From an uncultured Armatimonadota bacterium (GTDB lineage Bacteria > Armatimonadota > Fimbriimonadia > Fimbriimonadales > Fimbriimonadaceae), in NCBI GenBank assembly GCA_903927345.1, contig CAIYMO010000049.1, positions 62,001-126,000 of the forward strand: a DNA stretch of 64,000 nucleotides, in the 5' to 3' direction. Of this stretch, positions 57,227 to 62,800 are shown piece after piece. The notes below the pieces were generated by a model that was given only the letters and a program-made list of their open reading frames with translations, did no database searches and was not told where the DNA came from. Position 1 is the stretch's first letter, and each line of letters opens with the position of its first letter. A program made the translations under genes and the position numbers.

Positions 57227-58291
57227 TTACCTTCTCGCCTTCTTGACGCTGCGATAGACGTACGCTAGAACCTCGGCGACACCGGCGAAGAGCTCTCGGG
57301 GGACGAAGTCGCCGATCTCGCACTTCTTGTACAGGGCTCGGGCCAGAGGGACGTTTTCGACGATAGGCACCTTGGACTGAGTTGCCATTTCCCTGATTTT
57401 GAGTGCGAGGTGATCGACACCTTTTGCCACGACGATCGGGGCGTGGTGCTTGTTTGCCTGGTACTGGATGGCAACAGCAAAGTGGGTCGGGTTCGTGATG
57501 ATGACGTCAGCAGATCGCACGGCTTCGGACGTTCGCATCTTCATGATTTGACGCCGTCGGCGGGCCATTGCGCCTTTCAGTTCGGGCGAGGTCTCGGAGT
57601 CTTTGTACTCTTGTTTGACTTCCTCTTTGGTCATTTTGAGTTGCTTGAGAACCTGTTGGCGCTGGAACATGTAGTCAACGGCCGCGAGGGCAAGCCATGC
57701 TATTCCGATGCGGAGGCAGATGGTTCGGGCAACTTCACCGATGACGCTAAAGGATGCGGCGGGGGTGAGAGACCAGATCATTCCAAGGCGCTCCCAGTGG
57801 GCGAGCAGCGATGTCCAGACCAGGAACGAGAAGAGGAAGAGCTTGACGATTCCCTTGAACGCGTCGAAGAGCGCAGGCTTGCCGAAGAGCCGCTTGAAGC
57901 CGTTCATGGGGTTCAGCTTTTGGAAGCTGGGCTTCATGGCTTCGGGCGAAAAGGCGAAGCCGACTTGGGCGACGTTTCCAGCGACGCCGATGACCATGGC
58001 AACGCTCATCAGAGTTGCGAGGGCGGGCAAAACTGGGAAAAGTGCTGACTTGGCGACGCGCTGAATACCTGCGAACGAGATTTCGGTTGAGCTGGTGGTG
58101 ACGGCGGCGCGGAAGCCCTCGATGAAGCCGAGGTAGCCCATTCGGAAGATTGCAGGGATTGCGATGAGGAGGGCGAGCCACACCAGGGCTCCCACCAAGT
58201 CCATCGACTTCGTGACTGTTCCTTTTTTGCGCGCCTCGCGCTTCCTACGGTCTGTTGGCTGTTCTGTTCTTTCTTGTCCGCCTTCTGCCAT
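57227..58291 (-). CDS. flhB: Flagellar export switch protein FlhB
   Basis: The 354-residue protein has four N-terminal membrane helices and the cytoplasmic domain with the autocleavage motif NPTH (in ADVIITNPTHFAVAIQY). Cleavage there switches export from hook to filament substrates. The start is 3 nt after fliR. It is the last gene of the flagellar cluster here; flhA is not in the window. Confidence 0.97.
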   Translation of the reverse strand: MAEGGQERTEQPTDRRKREARKKGTVTKSMDLVGALVWLALLIAIPAIFRMGYLGFIEGFRAAVTTSSTEISFAGIQRVAKSALFPVLPALATLMSVAMVIGVAGNVAQVGFAFSPEAMKPSFQKLNPMNGFKRLFGKPALFDAFKGIVKLFLFSFLVWTSLLAHWERLGMIWSLTPAASFSVIGEVARTICLRIGIAWLALAAVDYMFQRQQVLKQLKMTKEEVKQEYKDSETSPELKGAMARRRRQIMKMRTSEAVRSADVIITNPTHFAVAIQYQANKHHAPIVVAKGVDHLALKIREMATQSKVPIVENVPLARALYKKCEIGDFVPRELFAGVAEVLAYVYRSVKKARR

Positions 58292-58294
58292 GGT

Positions 58295-59065
58295 TTATCC
58301 TCCGAAGATCCGACCGAGAAGTTCGGTTGATCGTGCGACGCCGGCGGTGGTTGCACCGACAAGAGCGGGAAGGCTCATCGAGACAGCGGCGATGCCAAGG
58401 CCGAGCTTGGCTGGGGTGCCGATTTGAATCGGCTGAAGTTGAGGGAGAGCTTTTGACATGAGACCGAGTGCGGCGTCGATGATCATGGAGACTCCTAGAA
58501 CTGGGGCGGCGATTTGAACAGAAATGATCATGCCTTGGGCGATGAGCTGCATGATGCCGTTGTGGATCAATCCCAGGTGTCCGGCGGTAAGGGTCGGTGC
58601 GGTTTGGTAGCTCTTGACGATCGCTTGGATGACGATATGGTGCCCGTTCATCGCGAGGAAGCACATGATGGCGAGCATCGTTTTGAACTGACCCATGACC
58701 GAAACTTGGATGCCGAGAACTGGGTTGAGCGTTTGGCTCATGCCGAGGCCGATCTGAAGATCAAGGAACGATCCCGCCATGGTGGCGAAGTGAATCGTGA
58801 GTTGGAGCAGCAAGCCGATGAGGAGACCTGCTCCAACCTCATTAAGAAGGGCCACCAACATTCCGCCGAGGTGGGCTGGGGCTTCTCCGACGTTGGCTTT
58901 GACGACCATGCTGAGTGCGGCACTTAGAGCGAACGAGGTGAAGACTCTGATTTGGACTGGCGTGTTTTGCGCTCCGAATAGGGGTGACGACATCACGGCT
59001 GCGCTGCATCGTACGAAGACGATGAAGAACGCATAGAGAGCCTGGTAGTCGTTAAGCGGAGGCAT
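58295..59065 (-). CDS. fliR: Flagellar export gate protein FliR
   Basis: The 256-residue membrane protein forms part of the FliP-FliQ-FliR export gate. Features are YALYAFFIVFVRCSAAVMSSPLFG, GLLIGLLLQLTIHFATMAGSFLDLQIGLGMSQ and the conserved VSMIIDAALGLMSKALPQ. It has no clear Shine-Dalgarno; the stop of the small ORF lies 8 nt upstream, so it may depend on translational coupling. Confidence 0.95.
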   Translation of the reverse strand: MPPLNDYQALYAFFIVFVRCSAAVMSSPLFGAQNTPVQIRVFTSFALSAALSMVVKANVGEAPAHLGGMLVALLNEVGAGLLIGLLLQLTIHFATMAGSFLDLQIGLGMSQTLNPVLGIQVSVMGQFKTMLAIMCFLAMNGHHIVIQAIVKSYQTAPTLTAGHLGLIHNGIMQLIAQGMIISVQIAAPVLGVSMIIDAALGLMSKALPQLQPIQIGTPAKLGLGIAAVSMSLPALVGATTAGVARSTELLGRIFGG

Positions 59066-59073
59066 TGTCGTAT

Positions 59074-59232
59074 TTAGCGCTCGGAAGGAGCCATTTGGTC
59101 TGATTCGTTCATGAGGTTTCGAAAAAGGTTCTTGAGGTCGAAGGCATAGGGCAGCTCGGATTCGCCGAGCTCTCGGAAGCCGCCTTCGACGACGGTGAGC
59201 TTCACGGGTTGGTTGATGGGTTGTGCGTTCAT
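59074..59232 (-). CDS. Undescribed 52-residue protein between fliQ and fliR
   Basis: ATG 59232 overlaps the fliQ stop as ATGA, and the frame runs 52 codons to TAA 59076-59074. The peptide is soluble: MNAQPINQPVKLTVVEGG, then FRELGESELPYAFDLKNLF and an acidic-polar end. Codon choice matches neighbouring genes (TTC, CTC, GAA, CGA). The region would otherwise be a gap of 163 nt in an operon with 3-29 nt gaps. I know no family for it. A helix such as PYAFDLKNLFRNLMNESD could bind an export component. It is probably a real small gene. Confidence 0.7.
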   Translation of the reverse strand: MNAQPINQPVKLTVVEGGFRELGESELPYAFDLKNLFRNLMNESDQMAPSER

Positions 59233-59501
59233 TGCCATCCGATGTTTGCGGCGCGTTGGAAGCAGATGTGGACGAACTGGACGAGGGTTGTCAGCATCCA
59301 GTTACCCATGAATGCAGTCGCGACTCCAACTCCGAGGAGCTTTGGCACGAAAGCGAGGGTTGCTTCTTGAATCTGGGTCACCGCCTGGAAGACGGAGACG
59401 ATAAGGCCGAGAAAGAGGGCGGTCGCAAGCACGGGGAGCGAAACCAGGAGTCCGGTTTGGAGTCCGAGTCTTGCGGTGTCGAGGGCGAGGGTTTGGTTCA
59501 T
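59229..59501 (-). CDS. fliQ: Flagellar export gate protein FliQ
   Basis: The 90-residue protein has two membrane helices: LGLQTGLLVSLPVLATALFLGLIVSVFQAVTQIQEATLAFVPKLLGV fits FliQ closely. Four copies surround the FliP-FliR gate. It lies 29 nt after fliP. Confidence 0.95.
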   Translation of the reverse strand: MNQTLALDTARLGLQTGLLVSLPVLATALFLGLIVSVFQAVTQIQEATLAFVPKLLGVGVATAFMGNWMLTTLVQFVHICFQRAANIGWQ

Positions 59502-59530: not shown

Positions 59531-60313
59531 TTATCGATAGCCAGCTAATATCGCGGAGACGAGGGTTCCCCAGCCGTCGGCAAGTACGAAGACAAGCAGC
59601 TTGGCGGGGAGAGAGACAATTGAAGGCGGGAGCATCATCATTCCCATGCTCATGAGGCCACTGGCCACGACGAGGTCGATGATGAGGAACGGAATGAAGA
59701 TGTAGAAGCCAACGATGAAGGCCGTTTTGAGTTCAGAGATCACGAAGGCAGGCACGAGGGAGGTGATTGAGACATCCTTCTTCGTGGCTGGCTTTTCCTT
59801 GCGGAGGTCCAAGAAGAGCTTGAGGTCCTTCTCGTAGGTGTTCTTCAACATGAAGTCGCGGACTGGGCCAGTGGCTCGTTTGATCAGCTCTTCCTGAGAC
59901 ATCCTCACGCCTCCCTTTTGGGATTGGCTAGCAAAGTAGGGCTGGATGGCGTCGTTGTTCACTTTCGACCAGGTAGGCCCCATGACGTAGAAGGTGAGGA
60001 AGAGGGAGAGGCCGATGACCACCTGGTTTGGTGGAATCGTTGGGGTGCCAAGTGCGGTTCGGATAAAGCTAAAGATGATGACGATGCGGGTGAACGCCGT
60101 CGTGAGGATCATCAGCGCAGGAGCCAATGAAAGGACCGTGAGCATCGCCAGAATCTGGAGCGATGTTGCAACTTCGGTCGGATTTCCGTTTGGGTTAATT
60201 TTCCCTGCAGACTGAGGTGCGCCGATGCCGATACTAATAGAGGGAATCCCTGCTTGTGCGGATGCGATCCCCACGAGACCAAGTACGAGCAAGATCCAAA
60301 GAAGCTTTTTCAT
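59531..60313 (-). CDS. fliP: Flagellar export gate protein FliP
   Basis: The 260-residue protein has a cleavable signal-like N-terminus and the FliP core: LSLAPALMILTTAFTRIVIIFSFIRTALGTPTIPPNQVVIGLSLFLT, then IPFLIIDLVVASGLMSMGMMMLPPSIVSLPAKLLVFVLADGW. Five copies form the gate. It lies 2 nt after fliO. Confidence 0.97.
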   Translation of the reverse strand: MKKLLWILLVLGLVGIASAQAGIPSISIGIGAPQSAGKINPNGNPTEVATSLQILAMLTVLSLAPALMILTTAFTRIVIIFSFIRTALGTPTIPPNQVVIGLSLFLTFYVMGPTWSKVNNDAIQPYFASQSQKGGVRMSQEELIKRATGPVRDFMLKNTYEKDLKLFLDLRKEKPATKKDVSITSLVPAFVISELKTAFIVGFYIFIPFLIIDLVVASGLMSMGMMMLPPSIVSLPAKLLVFVLADGWGTLVSAILAGYR

Positions 60314-60315
60314 GG

Positions 60316-60849
60316 TTATCTCATCAATTGATTAAGTCGTTGAAGCGCAATTGCTGCTTCGTTTTCTTCGGCTACTTGGATTGCAGCGCGCATCTGGTCC
60401 ACGGAAGGAGGAGTTGGGAAATCGCGTACAGGTGCGGCTTCGACCATTTCCATGAAAGTTGGGCCTGGATCGTTTTTGGGGGCTTCGCCCAGATCAGCAA
60501 GCGTCGTAATCGTTGTCGGGGTCGAGCCAAGGAGTAGGGTTCTTCCCTTCACCGTTACCAGGTGGATCGATCCACCGGCGAAGGACGCAGACTCTTCGAC
60601 CTTGATTGCCGAGTTGAGTCCCGTTGAAAGCTTGGAGCCGTACTTCGCCATCATCTTGGGCAAGAACAGCTTCATCAGCACCATCACTACGATCACCGCA
60701 AGAACCATCTGCAGGAGTCCGCCGCCTGAGCTGGTGCTTGGCGTGAACTGGGAGGCAGAGTCTCCTTTGGTGCCCAGCATGCCGTCTTGAGCCGCACAGT
60801 AGGCGGTTGCGAGGGCAAAGCTGAGGGTGGTTACGAATCGAAGCATCAA
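60316..60849 (-). CDS. fliO: FliO-like flagellar biosynthesis protein
   Basis: The 177-residue protein has a signal peptide, one membrane helix (LLQMVLAVIVVMVLMKLFLP) and a small cytoplasmic beta domain with IKVEESASFAGGSIHLVTVKGRTLLLGSTP, the FliO pattern. A C-terminal helical tail follows. FliO assists FliP assembly. The sequence family is weakly conserved; position before fliP makes the call firm. Confidence 0.88.
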   Translation of the reverse strand: MMLRFVTTLSFALATAYCAAQDGMLGTKGDSASQFTPSTSSGGGLLQMVLAVIVVMVLMKLFLPKMMAKYGSKLSTGLNSAIKVEESASFAGGSIHLVTVKGRTLLLGSTPTTITTLADLGEAPKNDPGPTFMEMVEAAPVRDFPTPPSVDQMRAAIQVAEENEAAIALQRLNQLMR

Positions 60850-60855
60850 ATCCTC

Positions 60856-61770
60856 TTAGGCAGCGTCCATGCGGAATCGCTCAGCAGGGTTCAAGATTTC
60901 TGTGATACGAACTCCGAAGTTGTCTTCGATGACGACGACTTCTCCCTTGGCGACGAGACGGCCGTTAACCATCACGTCGACTGGTTCGCCAGCGGCTTTG
61001 TCGACTTCAACGATTGAGCCGGTGCCCAGATCGAGAACGTCTCGGACAACCATCTTGACTCGACCGAGTTCGACGGAGATTTCGAGGGGAACGTCGAGAA
61101 GGACGTCCATAGAAGAATCGTGTTCGAAGGTTGGCTTGGAAGCTCCGCCAATCGACATACCCGCACCGAGTTGCATCGCGGGGATACCAGGAACGGAACC
61201 TGGAATTTCATCGTCGGCGTCATCGCTGACTCCAACGATCAACTTTGCAGTGTCATCGTCCATGAGCCAGATGATCACTCCGGTTTCTTCACCGATCTGC
61301 ATCGCGATGTTGCAGCGGAGGACTGAAGGAGCATGCGCCAGGTTATCGGCGAGCTGGATCATTTGGTAGCGGATGCTCATTCCCGTCGCAACGACGGTAT
61401 CGAGGAGTGCGTTACCAAGTCCCAGACAGAGACCTTGGACGATCGACTCAGCGAATGGCCGAACCTCAGCCATCACGTCGTCTTCCACGTCATCCCACGA
61501 CATTCCGGTGACGACTCGTGCAATCTCCAGAACGGTTTCAGGGCGAATCAGAATCATCTGCATCGCTTCTGGGTTATTTGCCATTGCGAACTGAATCGCA
61601 AGGATATTGCCCGAAAGCTCTGCTGAAACTTCTGACACGTTAGCCCGCATCGCGATGGGCGATGAGAACTTCGCCGGGACCGGCGAGTTCGAGCTGACTG
61701 TTGTGCCGACGGTTTCCCAGATCGACGGTAGCAGCTCGCTAAATTGTTGGATGAGTTGTAACTGAGTCAT
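60856..61770 (-). CDS. fliY: Flagellar switch protein FliN/FliY
   Basis: From ATG 61770 the protein has 304 residues, far longer than E. coli FliN (137). The N-terminal two thirds resemble the CheC/FliY phosphatase-like domain (LAIQFAMANNPEAMQMI, DDVMAEVRPFAESIVQGLCLGLGNALLDTV), and the last 80 residues are the SpoA surface domain (LLDVPLEISVELGRVKMVVRDVLDLGTGSIVEVD). It forms the C-ring with FliM. Whether it dephosphorylates CheY depends on an E..N pair; ESIVQG and ALLD positions leave this open. The in-frame codons back to 61821 overlap fliM. Confidence 0.9.
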   Translation of the reverse strand: MTQLQLIQQFSELLPSIWETVGTTVSSNSPVPAKFSSPIAMRANVSEVSAELSGNILAIQFAMANNPEAMQMILIRPETVLEIARVVTGMSWDDVEDDVMAEVRPFAESIVQGLCLGLGNALLDTVVATGMSIRYQMIQLADNLAHAPSVLRCNIAMQIGEETGVIIWLMDDDTAKLIVGVSDDADDEIPGSVPGIPAMQLGAGMSIGGASKPTFEHDSSMDVLLDVPLEISVELGRVKMVVRDVLDLGTGSIVEVDKAAGEPVDVMVNGRLVAKGEVVVIEDNFGVRITEILNPAERFRMDAA

Positions 61771-61774
61771 GTTC

Positions 61775-62800
61775 TTACTGCAGGATGGGTTCGGTAATTG
61801 AAAAAACGTAGCGCTTGCCATTCATCATCGGTCGCCCTTTGAATTTCGGCACGTTTGCCACCATAAAAGTGAGGTCTTTTTCTGTCATCTGATCTAGCTT
61901 GATGACGTCGCCAACTTTGACTTCGAGGAATTCTTCAAACGGCACAACGGCCTTTCCGAGAAGGACTTGGCAAGGAACTTCGGTTGAAGTGACCTGATTG
62001 GAAACAAGTCGTCGGATTGCTGGGCTCTGGCGCTTACCGCTGGAAGCAAACCACTTTTGAGCGCTGAGCTTAATCGTGATCGGCTTGAGAACGAGGTAGG
62101 GGACGCAGATGCTCATCGCAGTTCGCATCTCGCCGATTTTAACTTCGAAGAGGATGACGAGTACGATGTCGTTTGGCGGGGCGACGCTGACGAACTGGCT
62201 CGAGGTTTCGAGACCGTCCACGCTTGGCGAAACGACAACGACGCCTTCCCAAGACTGCTTGAGAGCACCGAGCATTCGGTCAAGGATCGAGCGAACGAGA
62301 GGCTTTTCGATATCGGTAAGGACGCTGCGCTCCATTGGGCGACCAGGGCCACCCAACATCTTGTCCACCAGGGCGAACATCAGTCCCATTTCCATCTCAA
62401 CGACGATTTGGCCGTTGAGCGGAGGAAGCGAGACGATTCCGAAGACCGATGCACTGATTGATCGAAGGTATTCGTCGTAGGGAATCTGCTCCATCGAGAT
62501 CATCTCGATGTTGATTTGGGAGCGAGTTTGTGCAGAAAGTGCGGATCCGGCTGCTCGAGCAAAGGTCTCGTGAAGCATCGAAAGCGTTCGAAGTTGATCC
62601 TTCGAAAGCTTATCTGGGCGACGGAAGTCGTAAACCTCGTAGGAGTAGTTTTGAGTCTTAGGAGCACGAGAGCCGCTACTCTTGGGACGAGGTGCAGCGC
62701 CACCACCCATAGGTGCAGGACCGCTTGGTCCGCCGCCTGAGTCGGCGCCAAGTGTGCTCAAAAGAGCTTCTATTTCGGCTTGTGATAGGATGTCTGACAA
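61775..62800 (-). CDS. fliM: Flagellar motor switch protein FliM
   Basis: The 341-residue protein begins with the CheY-binding peptide (SDILSQAEIEALLSTL), has a glycine/proline linker, the CheC-like middle domain with LSVFGIVSLPPLNGQIVVEMEMG-type sequence and a C-terminal SpoA domain. The start is TTG 62800, preceded by GAGGAAA about 8 nt upstream. It heads fliM / fliN / fliO / fliP / fliQ / small ORF / fliR / flhB. Confidence 0.96.
   Translation of the reverse strand: MSDILSQAEIEALLSTLGADSGGGPSGPAPMGGGAAPRPKSSGSRAPKTQNYSYEVYDFRRPDKLSKDQLRTLSMLHETFARAAGSALSAQTRSQINIEMISMEQIPYDEYLRSISASVFGIVSLPPLNGQIVVEMEMGLMFALVDKMLGGPGRPMERSVLTDIEKPLVRSILDRMLGALKQSWEGVVVVSPSVDGLETSSQFVSVAPPNDIVLVILFEVKIGEMRTAMSICVPYLVLKPITIKLSAQKWFASSGKRQSPAIRRLVSNQVTSTEVPCQVLLGKAVVPFEEFLEVKVGDVIKLDQMTEKDLTFMVANVPKFKGRPMMNGKRYVFSITEPILQ

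Follow-up and report, generated by a model that had tools for sequence, protein, structure and literature searches.

Few parts of flagellar operons are as conserved as the fliP, fliQ and fliR genes. In Salmonella, FliO keeps FliP stable and favours formation of the FliP-FliR complex (PMC5542435); it is a precedent for an assembly helper whose gene lies in the export-gate operon. Here we analysed a 64,000-nucleotide (nt) stretch of contig CAIYMO010000049.1 from an uncultured Armatimonadota bacterium (the window), in which a 52-codon open reading frame (ORF) lies between fliQ and fliR. We found that this ORF is a real protein-coding gene and that it is under purifying selection for its amino-acid sequence. 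An earlier reading of the window (the preliminary description) had proposed an undescribed small protein gene in the operon, and this proposal is supported by the selection and by a frame that stays intact in both relatives that retain the gap.

The ORF reads from 59232 to 59074 and encodes MNAQPINQPVKLTVVEGGFRELGESELPYAFDLKNLFRNLMNESDQMAPSER. The coordinates given before, with the ATGA overlap and the stop 8 nt before the fliR start, were correct, and the strand, which had not been given, is minus. The two nearest species among the genomes analysed, G015 and G018 (FliR identity 92% and 91%), carry the ORF at the same place with its frame intact.

59074..59232 (stop included), minus strand: 52-codon orphan gene between fliQ and fliR, from the conserved frame in G015 and G018, the substitution ratios and a shuffle test.
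59229..59232, minus strand: ATGA, where the ORF start overlaps the fliQ stop, read from the sequence; G015 likewise has ATGA, and G018 has TAATG.

Over 52 residues the ORF protein is 75% identical in G015 and 71% identical in G018, and alignment of the three proteins revealed a nearly invariant block, LPY(A/S)FDLKN(L/F)F(R/K)xLMNE(S/T)DQMxPSE. Substitutions at codon positions 1/2/3 numbered 13/4/20, 16/5/28 and 15/7/25 in the three pairs. As is characteristic of a protein-coding gene, the frame is conserved and synonymous substitutions are favoured. When the BLOSUM score of the differing codons in the ORF frame was compared with that of shuffled alignment columns, the observed score was 276 against -18.7 +/- 45 for the shuffles, and none of 20,000 trials scored as high; all five other frames of the region contain stops. 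The preliminary description had proposed a search of relatives and an estimate of the ratio of nonsynonymous to synonymous substitution rates (dN/dS). These gave G015 and G018 as carriers and rough pairwise values, where defined, of 0.10-0.16 (NG86) and 0.18-0.22 (YN00), compared with 0.00-0.09 (NG86) for the surrounding flagellar genes. Because the amino-acid sequence is conserved, the peptide itself is likely to matter, beyond the act of translation.

To describe the distribution of the ORF, a profile built from the three proteins was run at three levels: genus (20 genomes), class (113) and phylum (291). The profile search found carriers in 3 of the 291 genomes, one carrier record being a Fimbriimonas sp. 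metagenome-assembled genome (MAG), JARXAE010000016.1. A further weak match in G018 (E 0.06, from the genus scan at E <= 0.1) was judged to be chance. A gammaproteobacterial MAG (L036) gave a match that was likewise put down to chance: the stretch is short and immediately precedes an unrelated gene with a signal-peptide-like start. The phylum in general lacks the ORF. In the other relatives bearing FliR (n=46), the fliQ-fliR gap ranged from -4 to 64 nt and a 4-nt overlap was commonest, in agreement with the earlier statement that FliQ and FliR are normally adjacent. The sole exception was G059 (L066), whose gap of 193-196 nt consists of tandem copies of a dispersed CATTCCGAGCGCAGTGAGGAA-type repeat; it holds no matching ORF and was rejected as a carrier. 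The order fliL-M-N-O-P-Q-R-flhB is identical in carriers and non-carriers, with fliL undetected in some. Since carriers number only three in the phylum and the junction is short or overlapping in the 46 relatives, the simplest history would be a single recent gain of the ORF, in the common ancestor of the three carrier species, which form a clade within the genus.

The fliP-fliQ gap of L038 and L039 and the fliQ-fliR gap of L010 (G025) are made up of short near-repeats, of which GACTGAAGACTAAAGACT and CCCTGACCCCTGACCACTGACC are examples, and look as if they had grown by slippage. No FliR match was obtained in 9 of the genus's 20 genomes. Since 8 of these reach 98% completeness or more, loss of flagella seems to be frequent in the genus.

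The neighbouring genes of the export-gate operon, fliO, fliP, fliQ, fliR and flhB, were all confirmed by Pfam.

60316..60849, minus strand: fliO, known gate-assembly chaperone gene (PF04347, E 1.6e-6, above the curated cut-off).
59531..60313, minus strand: fliP (PF00813, E 3.2e-75).
59229..59501, minus strand: fliQ (PF01313, E 1.2e-25).
58295..59065, minus strand: fliR (PF01311, E 1.7e-55).
57227..58291, minus strand: flhB (PF01312, E 4.6e-112).

The fliP-fliQ and fliR-flhB spacers are 29 nt and 3 nt, and therefore the one filled by the ORF, between fliQ and fliR, is the sole sizeable spacer from fliP to flhB, as had been noted. Upstream in the operon, the longest fliN-type ORF (60856-61821, minus strand) shares 47 nt with the end of fliM. 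Its true start is more likely an internal ATG (MTQLQLIQ...), because the similarity to more distant relatives starts around residues 12-34.

The overlap of the ORF start with the fliQ stop is kept in all three carriers, which is consistent with ribosomes restarting after fliQ, and the ATGA of the window is likely to couple the ORF to fliQ by termination-reinitiation. An alternative in-frame ATG upstream, at 59238, would give a form of 54 residues; we prefer the start at 59232 because G018 lacks the upstream one. On the fliR side, the spacing from the ORF stop is 8, 21 and 118 nt in the three carriers, and no two carriers have the same frame relation between the ORF and fliR, so that the short, conserved stop-to-start distance of a translational coupler for fliR was not found. 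The 118-nt spacer of G018 (L003; G018:C1:1901555-1901674) contains a dispersed intergenic repeat that includes a perfect hairpin, ACCTCCCTAATCTTAGGGAGGT, and has six partial matches elsewhere in that genome. As the spacing is not kept and this repeat lies within it, a role as fliR coupler alone is unlikely. As to the coupler proposed in the preliminary description, coupling to fliQ is consistent with the start overlaps; a pure fliR coupler is poorly supported, given the spacing and the conserved peptide. No Shine-Dalgarno sequence was seen upstream of fliR, the ORF or fliQ (none was clear at the junction starts). Its lack before fliR, also reported earlier, carries little weight, because a Shine-Dalgarno-like 4-mer precedes just 14 of the 32 likely ATG-started genes of the window.

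The encoded peptide is acidic (net charge -3 to -4) and has no transmembrane stretch, the top 19-residue mean hydrophobicity being about 0.2; it is best read as a putatively soluble accessory protein specific to the lineage. A conserved helix is predicted near its C-terminus.

59104..59145, minus strand: predicted amphipathic helix, codons 30-43 (AFDLKNLFRNLMNE), from the alignment, AlphaFold2 and the hydrophobic moment.

The best 11-mer has a hydrophobic moment of 0.60-0.72, and AlphaFold2, run on the 54-residue form, placed a low-confidence helix at residues 35-48 and left the remainder unstructured. The protein had no match in Pfam (E<=10) or NCBIfam (E<=1), no homologue among viral contigs, phages and plasmids, and insignificant matches only in PHROGs and PDB sequences. 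Similarity to FliM, FliN, FliO, FliP, FliQ, FliR and FlhB did not exceed that of shuffles, and derivation from a neighbouring gene was rejected. No description of such a fliQ-fliR gene was found in the literature (open-licence papers), and the gene appears to be undescribed.

Building on the coding status, selection, distribution and overlap established here, we favour, with a probability of about 0.6, a lineage-specific orphan gene, gained once at the fliQ-fliR junction, whose selected peptide would be made with FliQ and act as a flagellar accessory or assembly factor. Ribosomes ending fliQ would probably reinitiate at the overlapping ATG and thereby produce the 52-residue peptide in step with FliQ, and the C-terminal amphipathic helix of the peptide would most plausibly bind a partner. 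Because FliQ and the peptide would be made together, from the gate operon, the first candidate is an export-gate or basal-body protein. We infer the flagellar role from location, by which a gate-assembly factor, as the preliminary description had suggested, is possible. A more tentative suggestion is a new, recently gained gate-assembly or secretion-control factor, produced in step with FliQ, that would act on the clade's FliPQR-FlhB core. Several observations weigh against the favoured role: location is the peptide's only tie to the flagellum, relatives that have flagella but fall outside the clade lack the ORF, and the AlphaFold2 prediction is weak (mean predicted local distance difference test score, pLDDT, 60.6). 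The ORF also has the highest dN among the cistrons compared, and its dN/dS is rough, coming from three sequences only with synonymous sites near saturation (pS 0.63-0.76).

Confinement to one clade, the lack of a family match and the flagellar relatives without the ORF would suit a real small gene with a function unrelated to the flagellum, a chance settler co-expressed as a passenger. We consider this less likely, since the exact fliQ overlap is kept in all three genomes and none of them has a strong second copy elsewhere. The ORF might instead be a translated spacer, in which translation alone matters: ribosomes leaving fliQ would be carried on to fliR, and the FliQ:FliR ratio would be set in this way. 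The overlap with fliQ, the 8-nt gap and the missing Shine-Dalgarno sequence of fliR agree with such a device; it is nevertheless improbable, as a spacer has no need of amino-acid conservation (dN/dS about 0.1-0.2) and the gap to fliR varies, with a dispersed repeat inside it in G018. Small size, absence from databases and presence in three genomes only could point to a chance ORF or a conserved non-coding or RNA element, which is very improbable given the strong codon-level signal in a single frame, the stops in every other frame and the lack of an Rfam match. Least probable of all is that the ORF forms part of FliQ or FliR, as an extension joined by frameshifting. In each of the three genomes its open frame does continue upstream into fliQ, and the frame relative to fliQ is the same throughout, but no classic slippery heptamer was seen by eye at the fliQ end, the relation to the fliR frame differs in each genome, and a stop-start overlap is the simple reading.

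Although its narrow range limits its general importance, a selected small gene at the fliQ-fliR junction would represent a datable addition of a new part to an ancient machine, in a phylum whose flagellar genetics are scarcely studied. Among known systems, FliO is, like the orphan protein, a small accessory protein whose gene lies in the gate operon, and virulence type III systems lack it; the orphan differs in being soluble, 52 residues long and clade-restricted. It is not FliO itself, having no PF04347 or TIGR03500 match and no transmembrane segment, and the operon has its own fliO. The flagellar regulators FlgM and CsrA are likewise small, soluble and flagella-linked, but both are encoded elsewhere in the genome and in relatives. 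The ORF is neither of them relocated: it matches neither PF04316 nor PF02599, FlgM lies elsewhere on the contig and the genome has its own CsrA. With the orphan small ORFs of bacterial operons the gene shares short length, fast evolution, narrow range and overlap coupling to the upstream gene, and it differs from them in sitting within the normally contiguous fliQ-fliR junction.
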